Below are positions 7,745 through 35,815 of a stretch of DNA of 44,922 bases, in pieces. The stretch covers positions 1 to 44,922 of the forward strand of contig JAAEOP010001081.1 in the NCBI GenBank assembly GCA_024223125.1, written 5' to 3'. The notes under the pieces are model-generated. The model ran no database searches. It was given only the letters and a program-made list of their open reading frames with translations, and was not told the origin of the DNA. Made by a program: the position numbers and the translations under genes. Each line of letters opens with the position of its first letter. Position 1 is the stretch's first letter. Source of the stretch: Chloroflexota bacterium (GTDB lineage Bacteria; Chloroflexota; Anaerolineae; Promineifilales; Promineifilaceae).

Positions 7745-9196
7745 ATGCACGACTTACAAAAAGCTGGACAGCGAATAACACGCTACGAAACCCCAAGTTC
7801 AATTGATTCTGCGTTGTCATTGCTGGCAGAATATGGGGACAGCGCTCGTTTGGTAGCCGGTGGATCAGATCTGCTGTTAGAGTTGGCTCGTCGTGAACGG
7901 CCGCATGTACAAACCCTTATTGACATCACCCGCATTCCAGGATTGGATGAGATACGGTCAGATGATGATGGCCGACTCCATCTTGGCCCCCTCGTTACTC
8001 ACAATCAAGTTGTAGCCTCTTCCTTATTAAGAGAGAGAGCCTTGCCTCTGGCCCAGGCGTGTTGGGAAATTGGCTCGCCGCAGTTGCGTAACCGGGCGAC
8101 TGTGGCTGGCAATCTCATCACTGCCAGCCCAGCGAATGATACGATTTCTCCGCTGTGGGCTTTAGGCGCGGAAGTGAAACTGGCATCGTTGCAGGGCGAA
8201 CGAATGATTCCCCTGAACCAGTTTTACACCGGTGTGCGTCGCACGGTTATGCAACCAGATGAGATGTTGGTAGATATCTCCTTCCCCACTATGAAACCGG
8301 AAGCTCAGGGCTTGTTTGTCAAATTGGGACTGCGCCGGGCACAGGCGATTTCGGTGGTTCATCTGGCGGTGATTTTGGAATTTGATGGGGATGTGGTCAC
8401 GGCCGCAATTCTAACCCTCGGCTCTGTAGCCCCCACCATTATTGAAGCCCCCGCAGCAGCAAACTATCTCATCGGTAAGCCACTGACAGACGAGACAATT
8501 CAGGAAACAGCACAGTTGACAGCAGCCGTGCCAAAACCGATTGATGATATTCGGGGCACGGCCGTCTATCGAACCGAAATGTTGCGGGTGATGGTGCAAC
8601 GCGCCCTGACAACGTTACGCGATGGACAGGAACGCAGCCAATGGCCGGCCGATCCGCCCTTGTTGTGGGGAGATGTTGCCCACGGCCAACACCCCACCGG
8701 CCACAAATTCCAATCCAGCCATAATGATCAAACGCCCATTAAAGCAACAGTGAACGGCCGTGCCCTTTCTGCGGCCAATGGAACCGATAAAACCTTACTC
8801 CGTTGGCTGCGTGATGAAGGATTGTTGACCGGTACAAAAGAAGGGTGCGCTGAAGGAGAATGTGGTGCCTGTACCGTTTATCTGGATGGGATGGCGGTGA
8901 TGGCTTGTTTGGTTCCGGCCGCGCGGGCGCATGAGGCCAACATTGTAACAATTGAAGGTCTGACGCAAAACGGCAATCTGCACCCGTTGCAACAAACTTT
9001 TATTGAACAAGGCGCGGTGCAGTGTGGGTACTGTACCCCCGGATTTATTATGGCCGGGGCTAAGTTGTTAGAGGAACGGCCGTTGCCCACACCAGAACAA
9101 ATCAAACAAGGTTTAAGTGGCAATCTGTGTCGCTGTACTGGCTATTACAAAATTATTGAAGCAGTGGAACGAACAGTTATAGAGATTGGAGATTGA
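7745..9196 (+). CDS. Molybdo-hydroxylase FAD subunit fused to 2Fe-2S subunit (XdhB-XdhC/CoxM-CoxS fusion)
   Basis: 483 residues. The N-terminal part (about 1-285) is the FAD-binding subunit: [14 protein letters not shown] (the AGGT/S flavin loop), then [24 protein letters not shown] and a C-terminal [15 protein letters not shown]. The C-terminal part (about 333-483) is the two-cluster ferredoxin-like subunit: [12 protein letters not shown] plus a distal Cys (first cluster), then VQCGYCTPG and [10 protein letters not shown] (second cluster); all eight cysteines are present. Such subunits pass electrons from the molybdenum centre to FAD. The ATG at 7745 has an in-frame stop just upstream, so it cannot start earlier, yet it lacks a clear Shine-Dalgarno. 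The C-terminal EIGD comes from a repeat (see 9185-9230). It forms one enzyme with the next gene. Confidence 0.92.
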
Positions 9197-9230
9197 GAGA
9201 TTGGAGATTTGGGTTTTCCTAATCTCTCCC
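9185..9230. repeat. GAGATTGG-family repeat over the stop codon, able to form a hairpin
   Basis: Direct repeats of GAGATTGGAGATT overlap the stop codon of the FAD/2Fe-2S gene and are followed by AATCTCTCC. GAGAGATT and AATCTCTC can form a stem of 8-10 bp. Related copies lie at 11486-11526, 12747-12760 and 35900-35938. Three of the genes concerned end in EIGD because of it. Confidence 0.7.
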
Positions 9231-9238
9231 CTTTTATC

Positions 9239-11500
9239 ATGGCAATTGGAAAATCAGAATTCCGAATTGATGCACCAGGTAAGGTGACAGGTGAAACGCT
9301 ATATCCGGGTGACTTGAGTCATAAAAATATGCTCTATGCGAAGGTGTTGTTTAGCGGCAAACCTCATGCTCGTATGGTAAGCATGGACACGCAGGCGGCC
9401 GCAGCGGTTCCGGGCGTGATTGCTATTTTTACGGCCGCGGATGTCCCCGTTAATGAATATGGCCTGACGATGTTTGATCAGCCGGTTTTTGTAGGGGTGA
9501 ATGATACGAGACGTGGCCGGGTTCCGGCCAATGTCAGCCGTTGGGAAGGCGATCAGGTGGCTCTCATTGTGGCTGAAACGGAAGCGTCTGCCGCCCGGGC
9601 ACGTGAACTTATTCAGATTGAGTGGCAAGATTTGCCCATACTTTCCGATTGGCAAACGGCCGTGCGCGACGAGATCCTCATCCACCCCGAAAACAAACAT
9701 AACAGCAATGTTTACCATCATTACAAAATACGCAAAGGGAATATGCAAGCAGGCTGGGCAGCGGCCGATGTGATTGTGGAAGGTGAATACTGCCTCCCCT
9801 GCCAGGAACACGCCTTTTTGCAGCCAGAAGCGGCGCTGAGTTATGTGGATGATGACGGCCGTGTTACTGTAGAAATCGGTGGGCAATGGACACATGAGGA
9901 TCAAGAACAGATTGCCCATGCGCTTGATTTACCGTTAGACAAAGTGCGGGTCATTTATCCGGCTATTGGGGGCGCGTTTGGCGGCCGTGAAGATATGTCC
10001 TTGCAAATTGTGATGGCGCTGGCTGTCTGGAAGCTGCATGAGCAGGGCGAAAGCAGGCCGATACGCTGTGTTTGGTCTCGTGAGGAAAGCATTATCGGCC
10101 ACCACAAACGGCATCAAGGCACAATCAAAACGAAATGGGGCGCTACGATGGAAGGGTTGATTACGGCCGTATCTGCCGCAGTTTATCTGGATGCCGGAGC
10201 GTATAATTACACCAGTAATAAAGTGTTGGGCAACGCTCATTTATCTGTAGCTGGCCCTTATGAGATTCCTTGTGTTTTTGTAGATAGCTATACTGTCTAT
10301 ACGAATAATGTACCCGGTGGTGCATTTCGTGGATTTGGTTCGCCACAAGCTGTTTTTGCGGCCGAAAACCAGATGAACAAATTAGCCGAAACCCTTAACA
10401 TAGACCCCGTGGAAATCCGTCTAAAAAACGGGTTGCGCGAAGGCAGCGAAGGTATTACCCAAACCGTCATGCCCGCCGGAGTCAGCCTACCAGAAGTGAT
10501 TAAACGATGCGAAGCTGAGTGGCAAGTTGCAAGTGGGCAGGCAGATCGATCCGCAATTCGCAATCTGCAATCCGCAATTCCCTACTCTCCTTTCCAATCG
10601 CTTCCGCCCAATTCAGCTGCTTTACGTTACGGCCGTGGCTTTGCCTGCGCCTATAAAAATATCGGTTTTTCCTTTGGCTTTCCAGAACGATGTGAAGCGA
10701 CAATTGAGTTACACGGGAAGGAGGAAATTGAACGAGCGGTTTTGTATCATGCAGCGGCCGAAGTGGGTCAGGGAACACATACAGCGCTGCGGCAAATGAC
10801 GGCCGAGGCGTTAGGCATACCACTGGAAAAAGTAGAAATGGTGGTTTCAGACACGGCCGTGACCGGTGATTCTGGTTCTGTTTCTGCTTCTCGTATGACC
10901 TGGATGGCTGGTAATGCAATTCGACAGGCGGCCGAAAAAGCGCTGGCCGATTGGACAGATGAAGATCGACCGGCCATAGGCCAGGCTCGTTTTGTACCTC
11001 CGGCAACCCAGCCATTGGACCCCGACACAGGCAAATCTGTACCCAACTTTGCGTATGGGTACGTGGCCGAATCTGTTGATCTGGCCGTAGATATTGAAAC
11101 CGGCCATATTTTTATTGAACGCATCATTTGTACAACTGATGTAGGCAAAGCAATAAACCCCAATTTGATTGAAGGCCAAATTGAAGGCGCCGTTGTACAG
11201 GCGCAAGGGTATGCGGTAACAGAAAATTTGCAGGTGGTTGACGGCCGTATTCTCAACCCCCGCCTCAGTACCTATCTCATCCCCGGCATATTAGACATCC
11301 CCACCCAGGTTAAATCCGTCATCATGGAAATTCCCGACCCGCGCGGCCCCTGGGGAGCGCGTGGCATGGCTGAAATGCCTTTTATCCCCTTAGCGCCGGC
11401 GATTACGGCCGCATTACACGATGCCACCGGCGTTTGGTTCGATGAAATACCGTTAACGCCAGGAAAAGTATCAGAAAAATTGAAGGAGATTGGAGATTAG
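9239..11500 (+). CDS. Xanthine-dehydrogenase-type molybdopterin-binding subunit
   Basis: About 753 residues from the ATG at 9239 (MAIGKSEFRIDAPGKVTGE). An upstream in-frame start at 9209 lies inside the repeat and adds an atypical leader, so I reject it. Molybdenum-cofactor contacts are clear: GGAFGGREDMSLQ, GGAFRGFGSPQ, AEVGQGTHTALRQ and the C-terminal GARGMAEMP carrying the catalytic Glu. The family hydroxylates purines or aldehydes; the substrate is not provable from sequence. Around residues 428-448 an insertion encoded by two simple repeats (GCAAGT type and GCAATCC type) gives SAIRNLQSAI, sitting just before the conserved GRGFACAYKNIGFSFG block. The C-terminus KEIGD is repeat-derived. 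Confidence 0.92.
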   Translation: MAIGKSEFRIDAPGKVTGETLYPGDLSHKNMLYAKVLFSGKPHARMVSMDTQAAAAVPGVIAIFTAADVPVNEYGLTMFDQPVFVGVNDTRRGRVPANVSRWEGDQVALIVAETEASAARARELIQIEWQDLPILSDWQTAVRDEILIHPENKHNSNVYHHYKIRKGNMQAGWAAADVIVEGEYCLPCQEHAFLQPEAALSYVDDDGRVTVEIGGQWTHEDQEQIAHALDLPLDKVRVIYPAIGGAFGGREDMSLQIVMALAVWKLHEQGESRPIRCVWSREESIIGHHKRHQGTIKTKWGATMEGLITAVSAAVYLDAGAYNYTSNKVLGNAHLSVAGPYEIPCVFVDSYTVYTNNVPGGAFRGFGSPQAVFAAENQMNKLAETLNIDPVEIRLKNGLREGSEGITQTVMPAGVSLPEVIKRCEAEWQVASGQADRSAIRNLQSAIPYSPFQSLPPNSAALRYGRGFACAYKNIGFSFGFPERCEATIELHGKEEIERAVLYHAAAEVGQGTHTALRQMTAEALGIPLEKVEMVVSDTAVTGDSGSVSASRMTWMAGNAIRQAAEKALADWTDEDRPAIGQARFVPPATQPLDPDTGKSVPNFAYGYVAESVDLAVDIETGHIFIERIICTTDVGKAINPNLIEGQIEGAVVQAQGYAVTENLQVVDGRILNPRLSTYLIPGILDIPTQVKSVIMEIPDPRGPWGARGMAEMPFIPLAPAITAALHDATGVWFDEIPLTPGKVSEKLKEIGD
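10519..10582. repeat. Simple-repeat insertion inside the molybdenum-subunit gene
   Basis: GGCAAGTTGCAAGT is followed by four GCAAT(C/T)-type units (10551-10581). The same unit family lies inside the threonine-synthase-like gene at 14925-14954. The reading frame stays open and encodes a loop ending SAIRNLQSAI. Confidence 0.7.
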
Positions 11501-11526
11501 AGATTGGAGATTGTTGTAATCTCCTC
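11486..11526. repeat. GAGATTGG-family repeat over the stop codon
   Basis: Three tandem copies of GAGATT(G/A)GAGATT run across the stop of the molybdenum-subunit gene. The last GGAGATT can pair with AATCTCC after a GTTGT loop. It is the same family as at 9185-9230. Confidence 0.7.
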
Positions 11527-11539
11527 TCAGGAAAAACCA

Positions 11540-12760
11540 ATGCAAGAAATAATTCAACAAATCAACCAAAAAGTGTCCGAAGCACACGACGACATCCTTA
11601 CATTTTTCCGTGAAATTGTAGCTATCCCCAGTATGGACAGCGATATTGAAACAGTAGGCAAACGGATTGGCGCAGAGATGGAAAAGCTGGGCTACGATAA
11701 AGTGTATGTAGATAAATATGGCTCTATCGTGGGTAAAATTGGCAGCGGCCCTAAAATTTTGCTGTACGACACCCACATTGACACAGTGGGCATCGGCGAC
11801 CCCGATCAGTGGGAGTGGGATCCGTTTGAGGGCAAAGTGGAAGATGGCCTGTTGTATGCTCGCGGGGCGCTGGACGAGAAGAACAGTACACCGGGCATGG
11901 TTTACGGTCTGGCCTTTGCCCGTGATTTGGGACTGCTAGATGGCTTTACCTGTTACGTCTTGGGCAACATCGAAGAGTGGTGTGACGGCGTCGGCTGTGC
12001 AGCGTTCCATGATTGGGAAGGTGTCCAGCCTGATTTTGTAGTCATTGGCGAACCGACGAATATGAAGGTGTATCGCGGCCACAAAGGGCGTTATGAATTG
12101 GAAGTGACCTGCAAAGGGAAAAGCGCCCACGCTGCCAGCAATTACATGGGCGACAATGCTGTTTACAAGATGATGCCGGTGATTGAAGCTATTTCTAAAC
12201 TGGAAGAGACATTTACGCCGGATGAGTTTTTGGGTATCGGCCGTATCAGTGTCACCAAAGTCAGCAGCGTCAGCCCCAGCAACAATGCCGTCCCCGATGA
12301 ATGTACCATCTTCATTGATCGTCGCATCACTTTTGGCGAAACAAAGGCCCTGGTACGGCAGCAAATTGAAGCCATCATCCCCGCTGCCACGAAAGGCGAT
12401 TTTGAAATACGGGGGCTAACTTACACCGAACCAAGCCACACCGGCGCCGTCTACGAATACGAACAATATTTCCCCTCCTGGGCTTTCCCAGAAGATCATC
12501 CGTTTGTAACGACCGGCCGAGAAACAATGAAAGCACTTTGGCCAAATATTGATGATTTACATGGCCAAGGAAAATGGGATTTTTCTACGAATGGTAACTA
12601 TTGGGCCGGCAAATTGGACATTCCCTGCATCGGGTTTGGCCCCGGCAATGAAATTTATGCCCACGCAGTTAATGAGCATGTACCCCTGGCGGATGTGGTG
12701 GAGGCGACAAAGTTTTATGCGTTGTTACCGGTGATGGTGAAAAAAGAGATTGGGGATTAG
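11540..12760 (+). CDS. ygeY: M20-family metallohydrolase, YgeY type
   Basis: About 406 residues from the ATG at 11540, which has CAGGAAA upstream; a TTG at 11504 lies within the repeat and is rejected. The di-zinc M20 motifs are DTHIDTV (His79, Asp81), GALDEKNSTPG (bridging Asp112), GNIEEW (Glu145/146) and VIGEPTN, with a terminal EIYAHAVNEHV carrying the last metal His. Length and the WEWDPFEG and RGALDEKN blocks match YgeY, the hydrolase coded beside ygeW and ygeX in E. coli and in gut anaerobes with purine-degrading loci. It probably hydrolyses an N-acyl or carbamoyl intermediate; the exact substrate is not established here. It ends in repeat-derived EIGD. Confidence 0.88.
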   Translation: MQEIIQQINQKVSEAHDDILTFFREIVAIPSMDSDIETVGKRIGAEMEKLGYDKVYVDKYGSIVGKIGSGPKILLYDTHIDTVGIGDPDQWEWDPFEGKVEDGLLYARGALDEKNSTPGMVYGLAFARDLGLLDGFTCYVLGNIEEWCDGVGCAAFHDWEGVQPDFVVIGEPTNMKVYRGHKGRYELEVTCKGKSAHAASNYMGDNAVYKMMPVIEAISKLEETFTPDEFLGIGRISVTKVSSVSPSNNAVPDECTIFIDRRITFGETKALVRQQIEAIIPAATKGDFEIRGLTYTEPSHTGAVYEYEQYFPSWAFPEDHPFVTTGRETMKALWPNIDDLHGQGKWDFSTNGNYWAGKLDIPCIGFGPGNEIYAHAVNEHVPLADVVEATKFYALLPVMVKKEIGD

Positions 12761-12772
12761 ACGGCCTGTCCT

Positions 12773-13015: not shown

Positions 13016-13504
13016 ATGATTGATTATATTGAATGCCGGTCAATTTATGGTGACACCAGACAAATTCCCAGAGAAAAGTTGGTGTTCCGGCCATCAGTCT
13101 ATGGAGTTATTGTTCATCAGGGTAGAATCTTATTGCTCAATTCTCGTTCTGCCAATCTACTGGCGCTTCCGGGTGGAGGGATTGATATTGGGGAGCCGAT
13201 GGAACAAGCATTGAAACGCGAAGTACGGGAAGAAACTGGACTTGATGTAAAGATTATTCGATTTTTGCATTTTGAAGAGAGTTTTTTCTACTATGATCCG
13301 GAGGACTTAGCTTTTCATAGTTTTCTATTTATTTTTGAATGCACCCCTCTTACATTTGAACTGGTAAAGGATGATGAGGTGGATGATGTGGAAGTGGAGA
13401 AGCCTCGTTGGTATAACATCGAAGGATTAAATAAAATTGACTTTCAGATCTTTGGTAAATTTATCATAGATTATCTAAATCAAATTGAGTTGGAGGAAAG
13501 ATAA
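13016..13504 (+). CDS. Nudix hydrolase
   Basis: 162 residues with a complete Nudix box: Gly54-x5-Glu60-x7-Arg68-Glu69-Val70-x-Glu72-Glu73-x-Gly75-Leu76 (LPGGGIDIGEPMEQ, then REVREETGL). The family hydrolyses nucleoside diphosphates linked to another group; specificity cannot be read. The gene is visibly more AT-rich than its neighbours and sits directly after a dead Uma2 fragment, so it looks like an insertion into the ygeY-ygeW spacing. Its last codons contain the GGAGG ribosome-binding site (13492-13496) of ygeW, which starts one base after its stop codon. A nucleotide-sanitising or housekeeping role unrelated to the cluster is possible. Confidence 0.88.
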   Translation: MIDYIECRSIYGDTRQIPREKLVFRPSVYGVIVHQGRILLLNSRSANLLALPGGGIDIGEPMEQALKREVREETGLDVKIIRFLHFEESFFYYDPEDLAFHSFLFIFECTPLTFELVKDDEVDDVEVEKPRWYNIEGLNKIDFQIFGKFIIDYLNQIELEER

Positions 13505-14479
13505 ATGCAAACATATTTACGTGGTCGAGACATGATCACAACCCAGGAATGGACGAAGGATGAAATTGATACCATTATTGATGTCGCCTTGGATTTGAAG
13601 CGGAAGCGGGCGCTGGGGGTTTCCCATGCTTCTTTGCGCGATAAGGTGCTTTCTATGCTGTTCTTTTTTACCAGCACCCGCACCCGCAATAGCTTTGAAG
13701 CGGGGATGGCTCAGTTGGGCGGTCACGCTCAATTTATTGACAGCACCACTACCCAAATCAGCCACGGCGATACGGCTAAGGAGATTGGGGAGATTTTGGG
13801 ACGTTACAATGATGGCATCGCTATTCGCCAATGTGATTGGGGCGTGGGCAACAAGTACATTCGGGACGTTGCGGCCGCCAGCCGGGTTCCAATTCTAAAT
13901 ATGCAGTGCGATCATTTTCACCCCTTCCAAATTTTGGCCGATTTACTAACCATCATTGAAAAGAAGGGCGATCCGCGCGGTTTGACGATGAATGTGAGCT
14001 ACGCTTATGCTGCCAGCTACCAAAAACCGATGAGTGTACCCATCAGCCTGATTTTGTTGATGACCCGTTTTGGTATGAATGTGCGTTTGACACGGCCGCC
14101 AGAATTCAAGCTCATCCCAGAATACATAGAACAGGCAAAGGAAAATGCCCGCCAATCACGCGGCTCGTTTGAGATTTTGGATGATTTTGATGCCGGTTTT
14201 CAAAATGCTGATGTGGTTTATCCCAAAGCGTGGGGCTGTATGTTGACAACGGAAGATTTGGAAGCATCGGCCGAAATTAGCAAGCAGTATACCGATTGGA
14301 TCACGGATGAGCGACGTATGTCCCTGGCCAAAGAGGACGCCATCTACATGCACTGTCTGCCAGCTGACCGCAATATCGAGGTGACAGATGGGGTCATTGA
14401 TGGGCCACAGAGCGTTGTTTACGATGAAGCGGAAAACCGCCTACATGTGCAGAAAGCGGTGATGGCGTTGACGATGTAG
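13505..14479 (+). CDS. ygeW: Knotted carbamoyltransferase YgeW
   Basis: 324 residues of the aspartate/ornithine carbamoyltransferase superfamily. The carbamoyl-phosphate motif is Ser57-Thr-Arg-Thr-Arg61 (FTSTRTRNSFE), followed by the DHFHPFQILAD (HPxQ) block and His283-Cys-Leu-Pro286. The long TTTQISHGDTAKEIGEILGRYNDGIAIR block and the extended second domain fit the YgeW family, a knotted homologue of N-acetyl- and N-succinylornithine transcarbamylases. Its cellular substrate is not settled; in purine-degrading bacteria it occurs with ygeX, ygeY, ssnA and xdhD. It is translated from a strong GGAGG inside the Nudix gene. No carbamate kinase is visible in this window. Confidence 0.9.
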   Translation: MQTYLRGRDMITTQEWTKDEIDTIIDVALDLKRKRALGVSHASLRDKVLSMLFFFTSTRTRNSFEAGMAQLGGHAQFIDSTTTQISHGDTAKEIGEILGRYNDGIAIRQCDWGVGNKYIRDVAAASRVPILNMQCDHFHPFQILADLLTIIEKKGDPRGLTMNVSYAYAASYQKPMSVPISLILLMTRFGMNVRLTRPPEFKLIPEYIEQAKENARQSRGSFEILDDFDAGFQNADVVYPKAWGCMLTTEDLEASAEISKQYTDWITDERRMSLAKEDAIYMHCLPADRNIEVTDGVIDGPQSVVYDEAENRLHVQKAVMALTM

Positions 14480-14531: not shown

Positions 14532-15818
14532 ATGGAACATATAACGTCTTTGAAATGCCTGATTTGCGGTAAGGAGTACCAGCCGGATACAGTTGCGTAT
14601 GTGTGCCCGGATCATGGGAATGAGGGGATTTTGGATGTGCGGTATGATTACGACCGTATCGCCCAAACCATCTCTCGCACATCCTTAGCAACTAATCAAG
14701 AGAACACAATCTGGCGTTACAAACCACTACTGCCAGTAGTTCCCGGCGCCGAAACGCCGCCGTTGGCCGTTGGCTGGACGCCCCTCTACAAAACAGACCG
14801 CCTGGCTAATGAGTTGGGTTTGCACAGTTTATGGGTGAAGGATGACGGCCGTAACCCCACCGCCTCCTTCAAAGACCGTGCCAGCGCCATTGCCATCGTT
14901 AAAGCGAGAGAAGTGGCAACGGATCCCGCAATCCGCAATCCACAATCCGCAATCATCACCACCGCCAGCACGGGGAACGCGGCCGCTGCTTTGGCCGGAC
15001 TGTGTGCCAGCGTGGGGCAGCCAAATGTGATTTTTGTGCCTGCGGCCGCTCCGCAAGCCAAGATTGCCCAACTGTTAGCTTTTGGGGCAACGGTGCTATT
15101 GGTGGATGGGACGTATGATGATGCTTTTGATTTGTGTTTGCAAGCGGCCGCGGAATTTGGCTGGTACAATCGCAACACTGGCTACAATCCATACATGACA
15201 GAAGGGAAGAAAACAGTCAGTCTTGAAATTGCCGAGCAGTTAAATTGGCAAGCGCCGGATGTCGTTTTTGTTAGTGTGGGGGATGGCTGTATTATTGGCG
15301 GGGTACATAAAGGGTTTAAGGATTTACTGGCGTTGGGTTGGATTGAGCAGATGCCGCGCATCATCGGGGTACAGGCGGCAGGCAGTAATTATTTGGCCGA
15401 AGCATGGAAAAATAGAGAGGATGTGCTGACAAAACCACCTATCCAGGCAGAGACGATTGCGGACAGTATTAGCGCCGGTTTACCCAGAGACCGGATTAAA
15501 GCGATGACGGCCGTAACCCAAACCAACGGCGCATTTATTACAGTCAGTGATGAAGAAATTCTGGCAGCCATCCCCAAATTAGCGTGGGGCTGTGGCGTTT
15601 TTGCCGAACCGGCCGGCGCAACTGCCTATGCAGGATTGGTAAAGGCAGTAGATCAAAATCTCGTCTGGCCCAGGGACCGGATTGTGGTGATTAACACCGG
15701 AAATGGGTTGAAGGATGTGCAGTCGGCTATGAAAGCGGTGGCAGGTGTGGGGATACGGCCGTATCACATCCAACCCACCTTAACTGATGTAAAACAAGCC
15801 TTAAAGGGGTCATTATGA
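14532..15818 (+). CDS. Threonine-synthase-like PLP enzyme (fold type II)
   Basis: 428 residues. The N-terminus carries a small zinc-ribbon-like motif (Cys9-x2-Cys12 ... Cys25-x2-His28) seen in many ThrC proteins. The PLP lysine is Lys114 in GRNPTASFKDRASA, followed by TTASTGNAAAALAGL (phosphate-binding and substrate loop) and TNGAFITVSDEEI near the C-terminal domain. By family it would convert phosphohomoserine to threonine. In this cluster it may act on another beta- or gamma-substituted amino acid, in the place where E. coli has YgeX (diaminopropionate ammonia-lyase). Residues 131-140 (DPAIRNPQSA) come from an inserted GCAATCC repeat placed just before the TTASTGN strand. It overlaps the next gene by 4 bases. 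Confidence 0.85.
   Translation: MEHITSLKCLICGKEYQPDTVAYVCPDHGNEGILDVRYDYDRIAQTISRTSLATNQENTIWRYKPLLPVVPGAETPPLAVGWTPLYKTDRLANELGLHSLWVKDDGRNPTASFKDRASAIAIVKAREVATDPAIRNPQSAIITTASTGNAAAALAGLCASVGQPNVIFVPAAAPQAKIAQLLAFGATVLLVDGTYDDAFDLCLQAAAEFGWYNRNTGYNPYMTEGKKTVSLEIAEQLNWQAPDVVFVSVGDGCIIGGVHKGFKDLLALGWIEQMPRIIGVQAAGSNYLAEAWKNREDVLTKPPIQAETIADSISAGLPRDRIKAMTAVTQTNGAFITVSDEEILAAIPKLAWGCGVFAEPAGATAYAGLVKAVDQNLVWPRDRIVVINTGNGLKDVQSAMKAVAGVGIRPYHIQPTLTDVKQALKGSL
14922..14956. repeat. GCAATCC repeat inserted in the threonine-synthase-like gene
   Basis: Four units of (C/A)GCAATCC-type sequence lie in frame and encode DPAIRNPQSAI. The same unit is present in the molybdenum-subunit gene at 10551-10581 and gives nearly the same peptide in an unrelated fold. 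Confidence 0.75.
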
Positions 15819-27384: not shown

Positions 27385-27395
27385 AAGGAAACAGC

Positions 27396-28751: not shown

Positions 28752-28773
28752 ATAGGTATACAGGAAAATTCTT

Positions 28774-29502
28774 ATGGCTAAAGTGAATAAGTATCATCGA
28801 CCGCAAACGATAGATGAGACAGTTATTTTATTGAGAGAATCGGGAACGGCCGTACTCGCCGGCGGCACACAACTCATCCCTAATAGTCAGGAAATTGGGG
28901 CGATTGTGGATTTACAGTCGGTGGGCTTGAATCAGATTGAAAGAGAAGCCGATACCGTCACATTTGGCGCTATGATCCGTTTGCAGGAAATTGTGGATCA
29001 TCTCGATGTACCTGAACTTATACGGCAGATGGCACACCGGGAAGGGTCAAATACTTTCCGCAATGTAGGCACAATTGGCGGCGTCATCGCCCTAGCCGAT
29101 TGGGAAAGTGAGTTGTACGCGGCGCTGCTGCTGTTTGAGGCAGCGGTAACGACGCAATCGGCAACGGGTGAGCAAAGATACCAACTTTCTGAAAGTTGGC
29201 ATCTTTCAGAGGGCGAATTGATCACGGCCGTCACCATCCAAACAACCGGCATAACCGCATCTGAACGGGTAGCCCGCACCCCGGCCGACAAACCTATTGT
29301 GGCCGTGCTGGGCCGACAAACAGAAAAGGGAACATTGTTGGCAGCCTGTGGTCTGGCTGACAAACCAATCCTCATTACAGAATCTGATCTAGACAGTTTA
29401 CGGCCGCCGGCTGATTTTCGCGGTTCGGCCGTATACCGGCAAGAAATGGCAAAGGTGTTGACCAACCGAGTTCGTCGCCGAATACAATCCCAGATAAGGT
29501 AA
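28774..29502 (+). CDS. ygfM: FAD-binding subunit of the XdhD-type enzyme (YgfM-like)
   Basis: 242 residues, short for a CoxM-type FAD subunit (usually about 280-290) but close to E. coli YgfM (about 259). The flavin loops are LAGGTQLIP and FRNVGTIGGVIA, and the C-terminal RGSAVYRQEMAKVL is typical. It is followed after two bases by xdhD, so the two are one enzyme. In E. coli the corresponding pair was proposed as selenate-reductase or purine-hydroxylase subunits. Residues about 135-148 (RYQLSESWHLSEG) are coded by a palindrome also found before ssnA; see the repeat entry. Confidence 0.85.
   Translation: MAKVNKYHRPQTIDETVILLRESGTAVLAGGTQLIPNSQEIGAIVDLQSVGLNQIEREADTVTFGAMIRLQEIVDHLDVPELIRQMAHREGSNTFRNVGTIGGVIALADWESELYAALLLFEAAVTTQSATGEQRYQLSESWHLSEGELITAVTIQTTGITASERVARTPADKPIVAVLGRQTEKGTLLAACGLADKPILITESDLDSLRPPADFRGSAVYRQEMAKVLTNRVRRRIQSQIR
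29177..29203. repeat. 27-base palindrome inside ygfM coding sequence
   Basis: GATACCAACTTTC and GAAAGTTGGCATC flank one T (13+1+13, one mismatch), followed by TTTCAGAG. Core and flank match the palindrome at 25994-26020. It keeps the ygfM frame open and codes for part of a variable loop. Confidence 0.7.
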
Positions 29503-29504
29503 TT

Positions 29505-32459
29505 ATGAACATTCACATAACCATCAACGGAAAAGAAAAAACAATCCCCTGCCAACCCGGCGACACCTTGCTGCGGGCATTGCGGCGAGAAGGATATTTC
29601 AGTGTGCGTTTTGGCAGCGATACAGGGGAAACGGGAGCGGCGGCCGTGCTGCTAAACGGCCGTCTCGTCAGCGCAGATATTTTATTGGCGGCTCAGGCAG
29701 ATGGACATGAACTGGAAACCGTTGAGGGGCTGGCTTTTGGCCTTGATTTACACCCCATTCAACGTGCTTTCATGCAAACCGGCGCGATCCAGTCTGGCTA
29801 CAACACACCGGCGATGGTGTTAGCCGCCAAAGCTTTGTTAGAAAATAATCCTAATCCAACCGAAGCCGAAATCCGGGACGCGCTTTCCGGCATTTTAGAT
29901 CGGGAAACGGGGTATGTGAAACCGGTGCAGGCAATCCAGGCTGCGGCCGCCATGCTGCGTGGCGAGGAACCAGACACACCAGAGCCGAATGTACTGACGC
30001 CACTCGATTATGATTCTGGTTTGTTTGGTGATTTAGGGAAGGATGAGCGATCTGATCCTACGCCTGATTTTGATGATGGCAACACAGCCACAAAAACCAT
30101 AGCCCCTACCAAACCGAAAGTGACGACGACAATTCCAGACACGGCCGTTGTCGGTAAACCAGAGATGAAAGTAGATGCAGTCAAACTGGCCAAAGGGAAT
30201 GCTGCTTTTGTGGACGATGTAGAAATGCGGGGCATGTTGTACGCCAAACTGCTGACCAGCCCTCATGCCCACGCCCGCATTCTGGATATTGATGATAGGG
30301 AAGCATTGGCTCTGCCGGGAGTCCAGGCCGTCATCCATTACAAAAATGTACCGCGTGTCATTTATGCCTCCGGTGGGCAGTCGTACCCTAACCCGCCACC
30401 GTATGATCAAGTCAGTTTTGATAATAAAGTGCGTCATGTGGGCGACCGGGTAGCGGCCGTAGCGGCCGAATCGTTAGCCATTGCCGAAGAAGCATTGAAG
30501 CTGATAAAAGTGGAGTATGAGGTGTTGACGGCCGTGTTCGACGAACGTGAAGCCATGGCCGCGAACACCCCCATCATCCACGACGAGCCAGACGCCGTTG
30601 ATATTCACGATGCCGGACGCAACATCGTCCACCATATTGAAGCAGAAGCGGGTAATGTGGCTAAAGCATTTGCGGAAGCTGATTTTGTGTACGAGCGAAT
30701 CTACCGTGTGCATCAGGTGCAACAGTGCCCTATCGAACCGCATATCGCTATCGCTTATTGGGACCCGGATGAACGGTTGACTATTCGCAGCAGCACTCAG
30801 GTTCCCTTCCACGCCCGGCGCATGATTGCTCCCTTATTAGACCTGCCACTAAAACGCATCCGGGTAATTAAACCACGCATCGGCGGCGGTTTCGGGGTCA
30901 AGCAGGAAGTGTTGATTGAAGATATTGTCGGCCATCTAACGATAAGGACGGGACGACCAGTACGCCTTGAATTGACCCGAGAAGAGGAGTTCGTATCTAG
31001 TCGCACTCGCCATCCACAGACGATTACGTATAAAACGGCCGTAGACAAAAACGGCAAACTCACGGCCCAAGAATTGAAAATTTTGGCTAACACCGGCGCC
31101 TACGGCACACACGGTTTAACTGTACAAACTGTGTCCGGTTTGCGCGGTTTGAGTACCTATAATTGTGGTAATAAACGATTTGATTGTCATGTTGTCTACA
31201 CGAATATCCCCGTTCCTGGCGCTTATCGTGGGTATGGCGCGCCGCAAGCTCTGTTTGCTTTGGAAGTGCATATGGATGAAATTGCTGCTGAACTGGGACT
31301 GGATGTAATCGAATTTCGCCGCCAAAATTGGGTCAACGTGGGGGATGGCCTGAACATCGCCCCCCACTTGGGTGAAGGTGAAAAGGAAACTGTCATAGAA
31401 ATTCCCATCATCCTTTCCAGCGGCTTGAATGAATGTGTGGCTCTGGGACAGCAGGCGATTGGTTGGCAACGGCACAATGATCCGGATTGGCATTTAGTCC
31501 CTGGAAAGCCTCATTTGCGGCGGGGATTGGGAATGGCAGTTTGTATGCACGGCACAGCCATTCCAGGACTGGATATGGGTGGGGCCAGTATCAAAATCAA
31601 TGATGATGGTTCTTTTAATTTACAGGTGGGGGCCACAGATTTGGGTACAGGTTCAGACACAGTATTAGGCCAGATGGCGGCCGAGGTGCTAGGCGTTCCA
31701 TTAGAAGACATCATTGTTTACAGCAGCGATACGGACATGACGCCATTTGACACGGGAGCCTATGCCAGCAGCACGACGTATATTTCAGGCACGGCCGTTA
31801 AACTAGCGGCCGAAGGTGTGCGCGAACAAATCAAAGAGCGCGTGGGTCTCATGTTAGGGTTAGACGATTGGTCTGATGTGCTGTTGAGAGAGAGGAGAGC
31901 CTGGGCAGGGGACGGCCGTTCCGTCACCTTAGAAGCCCTGGCTCTACATTCGCTGCATCAAGACCAGCAGCGGCAAATTATGCACACCGCTTCTTTTGTA
32001 TCCTATGAATCGCCGCCACCTTTTGCCGGACAGTTTGTGGAAGTGTTGGTAGACATTGAAACGGGACAGGTGACAGTGGAGAAAATGGTGATGGCGGTGG
32101 ATGCGGGCGTGGTCATCAACCCATTGACAGCCAGCGGGCAGGTAGAAGGAGGCATGGTGCAGGCATTGGGGTACGCTCATTGTGAAGAGATGGCTTATGA
32201 TGGAGACGGCCGTATGCTCAACCCCCAATTCGGCCCCTACAAAATCTACCGCGCCGACGAAATGCCAGAGATGGAAGTCATTCTGGTGCAAACCCACGAA
32301 CCCAGCGGCCCCTTCGGCGCTAAAGCTATCGCCGAAATTCCCAAAGACGGCGTCGCCCCTGCCCTTTCCAACGCTATCTTCAACGCCACCGGTGTCCGCA
32401 TCCGCCAAATTCCGTTCACTCCGGAACGAGTGTGGAACGCCTTGCAACAAGCTTTCTAA
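29505..32459 (+). CDS. xdhD: XdhD-type molybdopterin subunit with a cysteine-less 2Fe-2S-like domain
   Basis: 984 residues. The N-terminus (1-150) has the full length and fold pattern of a two-cluster ferredoxin subunit, yet every cluster cysteine is replaced: Ser38, Thr43, Ala46, Ala57, Ser97, Asn100, Asp132 and Glu134 (FGSDTGETGAAAVLL, IQSGYNTPAM, ILDRETGYVK). A Pro/Asp/Thr-rich linker (about 155-215) leads to the molybdenum domains: GGQSYPNPPPYDQ, HVGDRVAAVAAES, GGGFGVKQEVLIED, GAYRGYGAPQ, DLGTGSDTVLGQ and the catalytic Glu in GAKAIAEIP. As I recall, E. coli XdhD has the same loss, so it appears to be a family trait. The protein must use another electron route, in E. coli probably YgfK; no ygfK is in this window. 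Confidence 0.9.
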   Translation: MNIHITINGKEKTIPCQPGDTLLRALRREGYFSVRFGSDTGETGAAAVLLNGRLVSADILLAAQADGHELETVEGLAFGLDLHPIQRAFMQTGAIQSGYNTPAMVLAAKALLENNPNPTEAEIRDALSGILDRETGYVKPVQAIQAAAAMLRGEEPDTPEPNVLTPLDYDSGLFGDLGKDERSDPTPDFDDGNTATKTIAPTKPKVTTTIPDTAVVGKPEMKVDAVKLAKGNAAFVDDVEMRGMLYAKLLTSPHAHARILDIDDREALALPGVQAVIHYKNVPRVIYASGGQSYPNPPPYDQVSFDNKVRHVGDRVAAVAAESLAIAEEALKLIKVEYEVLTAVFDEREAMAANTPIIHDEPDAVDIHDAGRNIVHHIEAEAGNVAKAFAEADFVYERIYRVHQVQQCPIEPHIAIAYWDPDERLTIRSSTQVPFHARRMIAPLLDLPLKRIRVIKPRIGGGFGVKQEVLIEDIVGHLTIRTGRPVRLELTREEEFVSSRTRHPQTITYKTAVDKNGKLTAQELKILANTGAYGTHGLTVQTVSGLRGLSTYNCGNKRFDCHVVYTNIPVPGAYRGYGAPQALFALEVHMDEIAAELGLDVIEFRRQNWVNVGDGLNIAPHLGEGEKETVIEIPIILSSGLNECVALGQQAIGWQRHNDPDWHLVPGKPHLRRGLGMAVCMHGTAIPGLDMGGASIKINDDGSFNLQVGATDLGTGSDTVLGQMAAEVLGVPLEDIIVYSSDTDMTPFDTGAYASSTTYISGTAVKLAAEGVREQIKERVGLMLGLDDWSDVLLRERRAWAGDGRSVTLEALALHSLHQDQQRQIMHTASFVSYESPPPFAGQFVEVLVDIETGQVTVEKMVMAVDAGVVINPLTASGQVEGGMVQALGYAHCEEMAYDGDGRMLNPQFGPYKIYRADEMPEMEVILVQTHEPSGPFGAKAIAEIPKDGVAPALSNAIFNATGVRIRQIPFTPERVWNALQQAF

Positions 32460-32579: not shown

Positions 32580-33032
32580 ATGGGAAACATCAGAAAATGG
32601 TCATTATTGCGTAAAATTACAGTTTCATTACTCGTTTTTGTTATGATTGCATGTTGCTCGTTGATGGTTTGGCTTCAACTTGATCTGTTCGATCCTGATT
32701 TGTTAGCAACTAATGCAGATTTTATACTTCCAGAATCAGCTCGGAATACGCGAGGTCATTTCGTTGGGATTAGTAGTTTTTCGATGCACGGGAAGTTCGA
32801 TATGGATGCTACCGATTTTGACGACTTTGAGGAAAATGCAAACTGTATTACACCATTCCAACCAATCGATCCCCATAGCAGCGATTTAAAGAATTCTCCA
32901 TTTTGGTGGTGGACACCAAGTTCTAATAGCTTGATTTGCTCTGGTGGGGGTGATGGGTGTCGTAAATCCCTTACTGTAGATATTGCGGATCCTGAGACTT
33001 ATACTGTTTATGTGTATGCAGGATGCGGTTAA
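32580..33032 (+). CDS. Hypothetical membrane-anchored or secreted protein
   Basis: About 150 residues from the ATG at 32580 (GGAA upstream; a TTG 15 bases earlier is less likely). A basic start (NIRKWSLLRK) and one hydrophobic segment (about 10-33, containing MIACCS) point to a signal anchor or lipoprotein. The rest is acidic and Ser/Trp-rich with PFWWWTPSSNSLICSGG and four Cys in the C-terminal half, suggesting an extracytoplasmic disulfide protein. I do not recognise a family. The gene lies in AT-rich DNA between xdhD and VapBC and has no ACGGCCGT octamer, unlike most of the region. Confidence 0.55.
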   Translation: MGNIRKWSLLRKITVSLLVFVMIACCSLMVWLQLDLFDPDLLATNADFILPESARNTRGHFVGISSFSMHGKFDMDATDFDDFEENANCITPFQPIDPHSSDLKNSPFWWWTPSSNSLICSGGGDGCRKSLTVDIADPETYTVYVYAGCG

Positions 33033-33305
33033 TTAAATTTATGTCTAGGACTTTCGGTATTTTGACCAGATACCGTGTCAAAACTTCGCAGGCCTCTCCT
33101 GAATATTGAGAAGATACCAAAAATGTACAATAAGGATAGTGTAAGCACAAAGCCATACTAACAAATTGGATAGGCATGATGAATACGGCCGACGGTAACA
33201 AATTGACCTTGTGATAGAATGGAAAGGGAAATCGACACAAGTACGCAGCGGTTTGATTATTAAATATGATCGTATTGAGTCTTAGCTAACGGAAGGAGGC
33301 AAAAT

Positions 33306-33545
33306 ATGCTAACCGTGACAGTAGATGATGAATTGGTAAATAAAGCGCGTCAAGTTGGCAGGCATCAAAATGAAGTTGACGCAGTGATAGCTGCTTTACA
33401 AGAATATATCGCTCGTCGAGATAGTAAATTATTGCCAGCCTCCTCTTTACAGGATTGGGTTGATGATCTCTATGGATCGAAAAAACCCGAAAATGTAGTT
33501 GAAACACTTATCGCTGAGAGACGCGAAGAGGCTTATAAAGCATGA
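33306..33545 (+). CDS. vapB: VapB-type antitoxin
   Basis: 79 residues starting TVTVDDELVNKARQVG, then a helix AVIAALQEYIARRD. This ribbon-helix-helix-like layout is that of VapB antitoxins (DxxL, then ALxEYIxRR). The C-terminal part (about 45-79, DWVDDLYGSKK) should wrap the toxin. A strong GGAAGGAGG precedes the ATG. It overlaps VapC by 4 bases, which fixes the pair. The preceding 273 bases (33033-33305) hold no gene I can support. Confidence 0.82.
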   Translation: MLTVTVDDELVNKARQVGRHQNEVDAVIAALQEYIARRDSKLLPASSLQDWVDDLYGSKKPENVVETLIAERREEAYKA

Positions 33546-33919
33546 TTGCTTTAGATGCATCTGCACTTCTAGCTTACTTATTTAAGGAAGTTGGACATAC
33601 ACAAATTGACGAGTACATTGATGAGTGTTGCCTTTCAACCGTGAATTTGAGTGAAGTTATCGGTCGTTTTGCTCGTGACGGCCATGATTCCCAGAAAGTT
33701 TTGAAACGCATTCTGTCTACAAATATTGAAGTCGTCTCGTTTACGGCCGCTCAAGCCGCATTAGCCGCATCACTTTTACCTCCTACTAAACCATTCGGGC
33801 TTTCTTTAGCAGACCGGGCTTGTTTATCATTGGCTCTAGACAGAGATATTCCAGTTGTAACGGCCGATCAAGTCTGGCATCAAACAAACTTCGGTCTCCA
33901 AATCATTGTCATACGCTAA
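33542..33919 (+). CDS. vapC: VapC toxin, PIN-domain ribonuclease
   Basis: 125 residues. The four acidic PIN-domain residues that bind Mg2+ are Asp5 (ALDASALLAYL), Glu38 (NLSEV), Asp91 (SLADRACLSLA) and Asp109 (VVTADQ). VapC toxins cleave initiator tRNA or rRNA loops. The toxin is intact, so the system may be active. Its stop is only 3 bases before the start of the XdhC-type maturation factor, so TA and metabolic gene are probably on one transcript. Confidence 0.9.
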   Translation: MIALDASALLAYLFKEVGHTQIDEYIDECCLSTVNLSEVIGRFARDGHDSQKVLKRILSTNIEVVSFTAAQAALAASLLPPTKPFGLSLADRACLSLALDRDIPVVTADQVWHQTNFGLQIIVIR

Positions 33920-33922
33920 ATT

Positions 33923-34729
33923 ATGGATGCAAATCATACGATCTTACAAGATTTATTAGCCGCACAGGATTCGGGTGAAAGCGTTGTTTTAGCAACAGTG
34001 GTGAAGGCGCGAGGGTCTGTGCCCCGTCATGCGGGGAGTAAGATGTTGGTGTATGGTGACGGCCGTACCACAGGAACCATCGGCGGCGGTGAAATGGAGG
34101 CGCGGGTAGTTGAAGAAGCTCAAGCTGCTTTAGCTGAGGGCAAGCCGCGTACCATTCCTTATACATTGGTAGATCCCAAAGCGGGCGATCCCGGCATCTG
34201 CGGCGGCGAAATGGAGATTTATGTGGAACCTTATTTACCTCCACCTACCGTTTTTGTCATTGGCTGTGGACATGTGGGGCAGGCAGTTGCCGATCTGGCG
34301 CATTGGCTGGGATACCGTGTCGTCGTTACCGATGACCGGGTAGAATTAGCCACACCAGAGATTATTCCCCAGGCAGATATTTATTTGCCGGGCGATTTTG
34401 AGGATGGGCTGGCAAAATTCAAGATCACGTCAAACACCTTCATTTGCGTCGTCACGCGCAATGTGGCCTTAGACAGACAAATTCTACCCCAACTGCTTGC
34501 ATCTCCGTCCCCGTTCATTGGCGTGATGGGCAGTAAACGACGCTGGGAACATACCTGCAAGCTGCTGCGGGAAGATGGCTTAAGTGAAACCGATTTAGCC
34601 CGCTTCCATTCACCATTGGGCCTGGAACTAAATGCCGAAACGCCCCAAGAAATTGCCATCAGTGTGCTGGCAGAAGCGATGATGTTGAGACGAGGGGGGG
34701 ACGGCCGTCGGATGTCCGGTAGCCGGTAG
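33923..34729 (+). CDS. xdhC: XdhC/CoxI-family molybdo-hydroxylase maturation factor
   Basis: 268 residues. The N-terminal XdhC/CoxI domain has VVLATVVKARGSVPRHAGSKMLV (substrate/cofactor loop RGSxPRxxG) and TIGGGEMEARVV. The C-terminal Rossmann-type domain begins VFVIGCGHVGQAVADLAHWLGY and contains GVMGSKRRWE and SPLGLELNAETPQEIAISVLAE. XdhC proteins bind the molybdenum cofactor, help its sulfuration and insert it into xanthine dehydrogenases, so it should serve one or more of the three hydroxylases upstream. It has no visible ribosome-binding site and starts 3 bases after vapC, suggesting coupling to that gene. Confidence 0.92.
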   Translation: MDANHTILQDLLAAQDSGESVVLATVVKARGSVPRHAGSKMLVYGDGRTTGTIGGGEMEARVVEEAQAALAEGKPRTIPYTLVDPKAGDPGICGGEMEIYVEPYLPPPTVFVIGCGHVGQAVADLAHWLGYRVVVTDDRVELATPEIIPQADIYLPGDFEDGLAKFKITSNTFICVVTRNVALDRQILPQLLASPSPFIGVMGSKRRWEHTCKLLREDGLSETDLARFHSPLGLELNAETPQEIAISVLAEAMMLRRGGDGRRMSGSR

Positions 34730-34752
34730 TCAGTATTCAGTTCGGTTCAGTT

Positions 34753-34791
34753 ACTTGCAAACTTGCAACTTGCAACTTGCAACTTGCAAAC
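34753..34791. repeat. Tandem ACTTGCA heptamer array
   Basis: Five near-perfect copies of ACTTGCA (some with an extra A) fill the 78-base gap between xdhC and the LLM gene, next to CAGTTCGGTTCAGTT. The reverse-complement unit (TGCAAGT) also occurs in the insertion at 10519-10533. Confidence 0.8.
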
Positions 34792-34807
34792 TCATTAGGA
34801 GAAAATC

Positions 34808-35815
34808 ATGTCCAAAGATAGAGTTGCTTTATATTTACAAGATGCCCATTCGCTGCAAGAAGGGATTGAATTAGCCAAATATGCGGAGGCCAATGGGTTT
34901 GAGGCAGTGTGGCAGGCCGAAAGCCGGTTGGTGCGGGATTGCATTGTGCCTATGGCCGCTTTTGCCAGCCACACGACAACGTTGAAAGTAGCCAGCGGCG
35001 TCACCAATAATTGGACGCGCAATATTGGTTTATTGGCGGCCACCTTTTTAACGTTGGATGATTTGGCCGAGGATCGCATTATATGCGGCATTGGGGCCTG
35101 GTGGGATCCGTTAGCCAGCAAAGTAGGCATTAAACGGCGCAAACCATTGTCGGCGATGCGGGAAACGGTAGAAGTGCTGCGCCGTTTGCTGGCGATGGAA
35201 AATGTGACCTTTGAGGGTGAGTTTCATCATGTGGATGGCATTCAGTTGGATGTGGTTCACGGCCGTAAAACCCCCCGCAACGTCCCCATCTACATCGGCG
35301 CCACCGGCATGAAAATGATGGAATTGACCGGAGAAATCGCTGATGGAGCCTGTCTCAACTATCTGGTCAACCCCAAATACAATTTGCGAGCCATGGATGC
35401 GCTAGAACGAGGCGCTAAGAAAGCGGGCAAAACGATTGACGACATTGATCGGCCGCAGTTAATGATTTGCTCGGTAGATAATGATCGTCAAAAGGCATTG
35501 GATGGGGCACGGAAGATGATTACCCAATATTTAGGCCAGCAACCCCATCTGATGAAAGCCAGCGGCGTTAGCCAGGATTTGCTAGATGAGATTCACCAGG
35601 TACTCACCTGGCCGGCGACCGATGAGCAGATTGAAGCCGCTATGCACATTGTGCCAGATGATGTGGTGCAAATGTGTACGGCCGCCGGTTCTCCCGAAGA
35701 AGTCAAAGCCAAAGTGCGTGAATATGTAGACAATGGCTGCACCTGCCCTATTCTCTATCCGCTGGGTGACGCCAAGTTAATGATTGATATTTTTGCCAAT
35801 GGGTACAGCAGCTAA
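34808..35815 (+). CDS. LLM-class flavin/F420-dependent oxidoreductase
   Basis: 335 residues of the luciferase-like monooxygenase superfamily (TIM barrel), nearest in style to methylene-tetrahydromethanopterin reductase-like (Mer) proteins. Visible blocks are [70 protein letters not shown] and [19 protein letters not shown]. It is preceded by AGGAG. The cofactor (F420 or FMN) and substrate cannot be told apart from this sequence. As the last gene of the plus-strand run it may perform a redox step of the purine pathway or be an independent gene. Confidence 0.88.

Follow-up and report, generated by a model that had tools for sequence, protein, structure and literature searches.

A Chloroflexota gene island that likely encodes an F420-type variant of the reductive urate pathway, with a cluster-less XdhD and a candidate YgeX replacement

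The contig JAAEOP010001081.1 of a Chloroflexota bacterium (Promineifilaceae; assembly GCA_024223125.1), which was analyzed over its full 44,922 nucleotides and is referred to here as the window, carries an island of about 20 genes on the plus strand (positions 7745–35815). The island consists of long open reading frames (ORFs) with strong family matches in NCBIfam and Pfam, and a GntR/UTRA regulator gene runs divergently from it. The initial annotation, made from the sequence, had described this stretch as a purine-catabolism cluster related to the ygeW–xdhD locus of E. coli with an importer and extra enzymes, and both the set of named genes on one strand and the relationship to the E. coli locus are borne out. 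We consider it likely that the island encodes a route from purines to pyruvate that is based on the reductive urate pathway, in the F420 variant of Chloroflexota. The genes are listed below, with bit scores given against model cut-offs; PLP is pyridoxal 5'-phosphate and ABC is ATP-binding cassette.

6820–7557, minus strand: GntR/UTRA regulator, divergent and likely the regulator of the island (Pfam GntR and UTRA)
7745–9196, plus strand: molybdo-hydroxylase 1, fused FAD and two-[2Fe-2S] subunit (NCBIfam, Pfam)
9209–11500, plus strand: molybdo-hydroxylase 1, molybdenum (Mo) subunit, substrate unsettled (best model pucD, 534 vs 784)
11504–12760, plus strand: YgeY-family hydrolase, proposed ureido-group hydrolase (TIGR03526, 457 vs 321.5)
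13016–13504, plus strand: NUDIX hydrolase (Pfam), abutting the carbamoyltransferase gene
13505–14479, plus strand: carbamoyltransferase of 324 aa with YgeW/AOTC-type signatures (fails TIGR03316)
14532–15818, plus strand: threonine-synthase-like PLP enzyme (TIGR00260, 194 vs 167; PDB threonine synthases)
15815–17275, plus strand: 486-aa PLP enzyme of the cysteine-synthase/cystathionine beta-synthase fold, candidate YgeX replacement (family matches, structure model)
17329–18570, plus strand: ABC permease 1 (family matches)
18567–19517, plus strand: ABC permease 2 (family matches)
19663–21765, plus strand: substrate-binding protein with two Bmp domains (Pfam)
21864–23414, plus strand: ABC ATPase (family matches)
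23411–25990, plus strand: selenium-dependent-type xanthine dehydrogenase (Se-XDH), all eight cluster cysteines present (TIGR03311, 890 vs 830)
26038–27384, plus strand: SsnA aminohydrolase (NF005540, 516 vs 444; TIGR03314 also above cut-off)
27363–28751, plus strand: 8-oxoguanine deaminase (NF006055, 692 vs 532)
28774–29502, plus strand: YgfM-like FAD subunit (PF00941; alignment)
29505–32459, plus strand: XdhD-like Mo subunit, Glu606 present, all eight [2Fe-2S] cysteines gone (alignments, tree, model)
33306–33545, plus strand: small ORF, possibly the antitoxin of the PIN gene (a guess from position)
33542–33919, plus strand: PIN-domain protein (Pfam; a 54% identical PIN gene lies at the same place in relative G004)
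33923–34729, plus strand: XdhC-family molybdo-hydroxylase maturation factor (NCBIfam, Pfam)
34808–35815, plus strand: luciferase-family (LLM, Mer-like) enzyme, proposed F420-dependent yanthine reductase (NCBIfam, Pfam; PMC12507026, available part)

Four of the labels, Se-XDH, YgeY, SsnA and 8-oxoguanine deaminase, stand above curated NCBI cut-offs. Those of YgeW (180 bits vs 500 and 198 vs 453), XdhD (734 vs 1102) and YgfM (58 vs 241) fall below them, and neither PLP enzyme is YgeX. When E. coli K-12 proteins are compared with the window, the best match of YgeW, XdhD and YgfM is the gene so labeled (35%, 37% and 23% identity, respectively), while YgeY and SsnA match at 41% and 35%. The only window match of E. 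coli YqeB is the XdhC gene (38% over 244 residues), and E. coli YgeX finds a weak 173-residue match in the threonine-synthase-like gene. E. coli ygfK, hyuA, yqeA, yqeC, mocA, ygeV, xanQ, ghxQ and uacT have no window match at E 1e-5, in agreement with the earlier statement that ygfK and hyuA are missing here; the accompanying suggestion that the full chain from uptake to nitrogen use is encoded together does not hold, as the window is without hydantoinase and carbamate kinase. The initial annotation also raised whether the hydroxylases group with aldehyde- or CO-oxidizing enzymes rather than purine enzymes. Two of the three systems come out as purine-type, one passing the Se-XDH model and one being most similar to XdhD and carrying its Glu606; hydroxylase 1 remains unsettled.

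The frame for interpreting the island comes from enzymes of E. coli and C. difficile. According to the available part of PMC12507026, urate is converted to yanthine by XdhD and a co-purified protein, putatively YgfM, with NADH; yanthine is converted to ureidomethylhydantoin by YgfK or UacX with SsnA; and HyuA, YgeW or UacY, YgeY and YgeX then lead to pyruvate, with the roles of XdhD, SsnA, HyuA, YgeY and YgeX assigned by assay of the E. coli or C. difficile enzymes. A commentary by Percudani (PMC12990295) sums up Li et al. 2025 and Liu et al. 2025. The window shares with the E. coli cluster an XdhD that has Glu606 and an N-terminal domain devoid of clusters, a YgfM-like FAD protein, SsnA, YgeY, a YgeW-like carbamoyltransferase and a Mo-hydroxylase maturation factor. 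It differs in having the LLM gene instead of YgfK, other PLP enzymes instead of YgeX, no HyuA or carbamate kinase, an ABC importer where E. coli has symporters, 8-oxoguanine deaminase for guanine deaminase, and a GntR regulator for the sigma-54 activator. The available part of PMC12507026 also describes Chloroflexota SsnA clusters that are without YgfK or UacX and contain a luciferase-family PF00296 gene, proposed there as an F420-dependent reductase. The window likewise pairs SsnA with a nearby PF00296 gene and is without YgfK; no PF01180 match occurs among the 38 window ORFs scanned with Pfam. The missing ygfK is explained by this published arrangement, in which Chloroflexota carry the F420-type gene instead, here the LLM gene that the initial annotation had not named. 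The window locus is a member of the published variant, and three of its features were not encountered in the literature consulted: the probable YgeX replacement, the carbamoyltransferase pattern and the loss of clusters from XdhD.

Setting the observed gene identities, linkage, conservation and cysteine loss against this biochemistry, we infer all substrates and the direction of flow. The Bmp-type ABC importer would take up a purine base or nucleoside, and urate would be made by 8-oxoguanine deaminase, Se-XDH and perhaps hydroxylase 1. XdhD with YgfM would then reduce urate to yanthine (2,8-dioxopurine), with electrons reaching the XdhD molybdenum by a route other than its own [2Fe-2S] clusters. 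The LLM enzyme is proposed to reduce yanthine with F420H2, after which SsnA would open the ring and a hydantoinase encoded elsewhere would yield 2,3-diureidopropionate. The two ureido groups would be taken off by YgeY and the YgeW-like carbamoyltransferase, and the 486-aa PLP enzyme, sometimes beside the threonine-synthase-like one, would convert diaminopropionate to pyruvate and ammonia in the place of YgeX.

The island is conserved beyond this strain, as the initial annotation had suggested should be checked across relatives. A pattern scan for SsnA over one genome per species (84,980 species) returned seven loci in Chloroflexota and an eighth in KSB1. In G004 (L083 and L084, one contig), fifteen window genes are found in unchanged order: the carbamoyltransferase, both PLP genes, both permeases, the Bmp protein, the ATPase, Se-XDH, SsnA, 8-oxoguanine deaminase, YgfM, XdhD, PIN, XdhC and LLM genes; hydroxylase 1, YgeY and NUDIX genes are absent from the 40 kb of G004 examined. 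G003 has yqeB, a YqeA-like kinase, YgeY, the carbamoyltransferase, Se-XDH, SsnA, the deaminase, YgfM, XdhD, XdhC and LLM, and G208 has hydroxylase 1, XdhC, XdhD, YgfM, LLM and SsnA within about 15 kb. Matches to yqeB lie near urate genes in G003, G208 and G092, and matches to the GntR gene (26–57%) lie near carbamoyltransferase or PLP genes in G004, G006, G104, G374, G192, G019 and G184. In a sample of 400 Chloroflexota genomes (identifiers common to several searches indicate a single draw), 53 have both XdhD and SsnA, 3 have XdhD only and 16 have SsnA only, with XdhD counted at 49% identity or more, which dropped 27 of 83 XdhD genomes with a best match of 48% or less. The importer comprises the two permeases, the ATPase and a binding protein whose two Bmp domains are 82% identical over 300 residues (78% in DNA over 859 columns). 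Long versions of this protein occur in G001 (739 aa) and G005 (729 aa), and the G004 version has 379 aa.

Counting LLM at 63% identity or more, which dropped 2 of 59 LLM genomes (G105, 49%; G172, a 188-residue fragment), 69 of the 400 genomes have SsnA and 57 have LLM: 54 have both, 15 SsnA only, 3 LLM only and 328 neither (Fisher p 4e-49, ignoring shared ancestry). The two genes start within 10 kb of each other in 28 of the 54 genomes, where a rough estimate of the chance expectation is under one. In five of the eight SsnA stretches (L001–L005), the LLM proteins are 90–93% identical and the SsnA proteins 73–77%. LLM is not in the other three stretches, but is found elsewhere in the genome in G006 (86%) and G007 (89%). 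Of 13 relatives, 11 exceed the cut-off of the F420-synthesis model CofD (TIGR01819), and G006 falls narrowly short of it (254.9 vs 257.45). As this model matches 6 of 14 control genomes including E. coli, and is above cut-off in 3, only above-cut-off counts were used, and the result bears on the LLM cofactor as support only. SsnA and CofD are about 5 kb apart or less in G104, G255, G374 and G036, and a second LLM relative (58%) is located about 0.8 kb from CofD in G007 (C252). The KSB1 genome G008 has no CofD match and no LLM in the stretches examined, and a YgfK-like N-terminal half sits beside its SsnA. YgfK's own model is above cut-off in none of the 13 relatives, while the hydantoinase model TIGR02033 is above cut-off in 12; the latter also exceeds its cut-off in 2 of 14 controls and matches all 14. 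In G007 (C68), about 0.2 kb separates one TIGR02033 gene from LLM, and in G008 another is 0.5 kb from the carbamoyltransferase gene.

XdhD is the best of 20 models listed (TIGR03313) for the window protein, which carries the Glu606 proposed for yanthine formation. This position is E in all 238 rows compared, namely the best 120 of 7966 relatives of the window protein, itself included, and 118 E. coli-type sequences (2 of 120 listed were dropped at <880 aa). Its N-terminal [2Fe-2S]-type domain is present, and the eight ligand positions are occupied by S,T,A,D and S,N,D,E. The corresponding residues of E. coli XdhD, D,A,D,S and S,N,S,D, likewise include none of the eight cysteines. Among the same best 120 of 7966, all eight are missing from 110 and a single one is present in 10, and no cluster cysteine occurs in the 118 E. 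coli-type rows among the matches listed, one of which is gapped at four positions. Both Se-XDH and the FAD–FeS subunit of hydroxylase 1 keep all eight. Cysteine loss is not a feature of all urate reductases, an idea we rejected given that the XdhD in an annotated urate-type cluster of Cetobacterium somerae has all eight. This Cetobacterium cluster (L164), located on a 664-kb plasmid of a fish gut isolate, comprises XdhD, an FAD protein, SsnA, YgeY, a hydantoinase and XdhC, and differs from the window in its annotated YgeX and D-aminoacylase; its '4Fe-4S binding protein' was read by eye as a candidate UacX type.

Across 49 phylum XdhD loci (30 best-scoring and the rest chosen from lower in the list rather than at random, with L135 left out as identical to L102), 36 have Glu606: 11 with all eight cysteines, 13 that lost one or all first-cluster ligands only, 1 that lost the second cluster only, 6 that lost both and 5 without all or part of the domain. 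Of the 13 without Glu606, 12 have all eight cysteines and 1 lacks the domain. On a Mo-domain tree of 68 rows, the fewest changes are three per cluster. Grouping the window clade with the DSDG/GCCC first-cluster-loss clade was rejected (approximately unbiased (AU) test p 6e-6, log-likelihood 260 lower; a quick tree, with groups named after seeing it), and grouping the window with E. coli XdhD was not (AU p 0.195, log-likelihood 20.95 lower). As the two first-cluster-loss clades are separate, these trees imply at least two losses of each cluster, provided that L108 is counted for the second cluster. The most straightforward interpretation is an ancestral XdhD with the electron wire and its loss in several lineages. 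The cluster-less domain is still conserved: in row subsets, the divergence of the N-terminal relative to the Mo domain is 1.27 in the window clade, 1.29 in the E. coli clade and 1.19 in cysteine-complete proteins with Glu606, next to 1.61 where first-cluster ligands were lost and 0.61 in proteins without Glu606. For a structure model of the window XdhD (984 residues; pLDDT 75, 30 rows), the best alignment is with Desulfovibrio aldehyde oxidoreductase, at 1028 columns and TM 0.77. The closest of 50 PDB chains listed by identity (33%) is 4-hydroxybenzoyl-CoA reductase (1rm6), which acts on another substrate; this enzyme performs a reductive dehydroxylation within the xanthine oxidase family and has clusters. 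XdhD homologs of 769–774 aa without the N-terminal domain occur in G024, G034 and G011 (L131, L133 and L134), and in the first two, genes matching the FAD–FeS subunit adjoin them. A Haloarcula hispanica plasmid (L165) carries two pairs of Mo and [2Fe-2S] subunits beside yqeB, yqeC and selD, and one of its Mo subunits shares 45% identity with the window XdhD across residues 220–982.

In enzymes of this family the FAD-to-Mo relay runs through both clusters in order, and losing either should break it. With ligands for both clusters gone, electrons must reach the molybdenum of the window XdhD another way. The NADH-dependent reduction of urate by the E. coli preparation implies that a route without clusters ought to exist, provided that the preparation was what it was taken for. 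The options are direct flavin-to-Mo transfer, a wire supplied in trans, or a redox-neutral purine-to-purine reaction, and sequence alone does not choose between them. For supply in trans, the FAD and [2Fe-2S] subunit of hydroxylase 1 (7745–9196) would be the donor, as it has all eight cysteines and is co-encoded with XdhD in the window and in G208, where MoL1, FAD–FeS, XdhC, XdhD and YgfM adjoin. XdhD's own cluster-less domain, however, sits where such a subunit would dock and is scarcely more divergent than in the cysteine-complete Glu606 relatives (1.27 vs 1.19, as above), a YgfM gene is retained beside XdhD, and the stretch of G004 examined is without hydroxylase 1, so we regard this supply as improbable. 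A redox-neutral XdhD, in the window lineage and in E. coli, would use one Mo centre to pass electrons between purines with no external donor; for example, xanthine could be oxidized at C8 and urate reduced at C6, for a net conversion of xanthine to yanthine, with FAD and NADH only priming the site. We rate this slightly lower again. It is also conceivable that XdhD, YgfM and their neighbors reduce selenate or another oxyanion and that purines are incidental, an idea suggested by the former naming of E. coli ygfKMN as 'selenate reductase' (older labels in sources and in the available part of a 2008 table). Against this, the E. coli XdhD and its co-purified protein convert urate to yanthine in vitro (PMC12507026, available part), and the locus also holds SsnA, YgeY, 8-oxoguanine deaminase and a match to the Se-XDH model, each of which is consistent with purines; this leaves oxyanion reduction very improbable. 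The text of PMC12507026 gave no hits for '2Fe-2S', and we found no mention of cluster loss from XdhD in the literature searched (PMC12990295 and the available parts of PMC12507026, PMC2276186, PMC2997495 and PMC3958847), a search with most subscription papers outside its scope.

The window carbamoyltransferase shows a long loop, SYAYAASYQKPMSVP, and YPKAW where ornithine carbamoyltransferase (OTC) has VGDG..N and SMG, features that we take to be the knot and substrate motifs. A plain OTC was rejected, as the OTC model scores best yet stays below its cut-off (264 vs 306) and the YgeW/AOTC loop and YPKAW replace the OTC motifs. The best model of its KSB1 homolog is YgeW (275 vs 453). In nine relatives (G004, G104, G112, G147, G192, G235, G304, G374 and G379), a gene above the cut-off of the aspartate carbamoyltransferase (ATCase) model TIGR00670 adjoins, or lies within about 2 kb of, the YgeW-like partner; in G112, G147, G304 and G379 this partner appears only among the weaker hits of that search. 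The extra gene need not be PyrB in G004, G104, G235, G304 and G379, as another ATCase-model gene is above cut-off there; no other was found in G112, G147, G192 and G374, where either the extra gene could itself be PyrB or part of the genome may be missing. YgeY (50% or more) has no match in seven genomes with the extra gene (G004, G374, G192, G235, G112, G147 and G379), is present without it in nine (G002, G003, G005, G006, G007, G120, G124, G152 and G208) and occurs with it in two (G104 and G304). For these 18 of 24 genomes examined, Fisher p is 0.002, ignoring shared ancestry. Left out were G001, G255 and G036 (only ornithine-type matches), G019 (45%), G008 (YgeY 40%) and G063 (YgeY and a partial aspartate-type gene, with no close carbamoyltransferase seen); p becomes 0.003 when G063 is assigned both genes, 0.0007 when G008 is assigned YgeY alone, and 0.03 on dropping the four genomes in which no other aspartate-type gene was found. 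SsnA was not matched in G192 or G147. As the rest of G004 is collinear with the window, the difference in that genome is local. The amino group that is carbamoylated is an alpha one for ATCase and an omega one for OTC. Should the extra gene take over the function of YgeY, then YgeY would remove the 2-ureido group and the YgeW-like enzyme the 3-ureido group, an assignment drawn from gene content. The commentary (PMC12990295) reports the same proposal from Liu et al., whereas the direct assay of Li et al. points the opposite way, with albizziin detected from YgeW by liquid chromatography–mass spectrometry and a C. difficile D-aminoacylase in YgeW's place (PMC12507026, available part).

For the last step, the YgeX model (NF006058) is found in none of 13 relatives at 1e-40, with the E. 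coli control positive. In the window it gives 74 bits vs 276 to the threonine-synthase-like gene, and the 486-aa gene is not among its matches. The idea that the 486-aa enzyme is a disguised YgeX was rejected, as only 46 residues align with E. coli YgeX (E 5e-5). YgeX is probably replaced by this 486-aa enzyme, whose gene is present in seven of the eight SsnA genomes (44–81% identity) and in 63 of the 400 phylum genomes, 50 of which have SsnA. It adjoins the carbamoyltransferase gene in G002, G004, G005 and G235, and lies near it in G192 with a YqeA-like kinase gene between; no threonine-synthase-like gene is labeled beside it in G192, G019, G290 and G160. In an AlphaFold model (pLDDT 73, 27 rows), the closest structures are cysteine synthases, beta-cyanoalanine synthase and cystathionine beta-synthases, and 27 sequences share, without exception, K108, S136, T137, G138, N139, G250, S251, G253 and T254. 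For its reaction, the natural guess would be a beta-elimination, with diaminopropionate or, directly, a ureido-alanine as the substrate. The figure legend in the available part of PMC12507026 scores YgeX by PF00291 and YgeW by PF00185, a level at which non-orthologous PLP enzymes and carbamoyltransferases would not be distinguished.

Several observations weigh against a single route from purines to pyruvate. The 486-aa enzyme belongs to a very large family (at least 8000 matches), 13 of the 63 genomes with its gene have no SsnA match, and the two genes lie within 30 kb of each other in only 6 of the 50 genomes that have both. In G019 (L152), a carbamoyltransferase gene (45%), the 486-aa gene, a full Bmp importer and a GntR gene occur with no SsnA or LLM match; this arrangement is possibly a stand-alone import-and-cleave module, from which it follows that the enzyme may serve another substrate. 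The PLP pair is also on another contig than SsnA in G003, and more than 40 kb from it on the same contig in G002. The island could accordingly hold two separate neighboring pathways, with the importer, carbamoyltransferase and PLP enzymes handling a carbamoyl or beta-substituted amino acid beside a purine-hydroxylation and urate module. We think this unlikely, though less so than any of the alternatives for XdhD, as the 486-aa gene is close to SsnA in G290 and G160, clustered with it in G235, G008 and G124, and near a hydantoinase-like gene in G112, G374 and G063; moreover, a YgeY–carbamoyltransferase pair is one gene away from LLM in G006, and the carbamoyltransferase and PLP enzymes would be expected to act on what the urate arm produces. 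The remaining counterpoints to the purine-to-pyruvate route concern its other steps. Neither HyuA hydantoinase nor carbamate kinase is found in the window by comparison with the E. coli proteins, TIGR02033 is a family that also serves other pathways, and no hydantoinase was seen beside SsnA or LLM in the remaining relatives with that model. YgfM and XdhD fail the NCBI E. coli-type models, and the LLM proteins may use FMN instead of F420. Finally, the Glu606 column is gappy in non-XdhD enzymes, and E appears there for Se-XDH in one of five alignments and for hydroxylase 1 in one of three.

The small ORF and the PIN gene (33306–33919) share four bases and are located between the XdhD and XdhC genes, and the PIN gene has no PADLOC match. 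The flanks hold seemingly unrelated genes: a GDPD phosphodiesterase with a substrate-binding protein and permease set (1227–5730) on one side, and a kinase/regulator and MacB-type efflux set (35926–44698) on the other. A ParE-like gene is located at 549–806, and the window contains no Rfam match at gathering scores and no tRNAs.

Taken as the likely F420 variant, the locus would give Chloroflexota a near-complete reductive urate route that uses partly different enzymes, and it supplies specific candidates for both the F420 and the YgeX steps. An aspartate-type carbamoyltransferase gene in genomes that lack a YgeY match bears on which enzyme cleaves which ureido group, a question that the 2025 commentary leaves open (PMC12990295). 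The loss of every cluster cysteine from the enzyme proposed to start the pathway, in E. coli as well, is at odds with the name 'Mo/Fe-S-binding subunit', and asks how NADH could drive XdhD.

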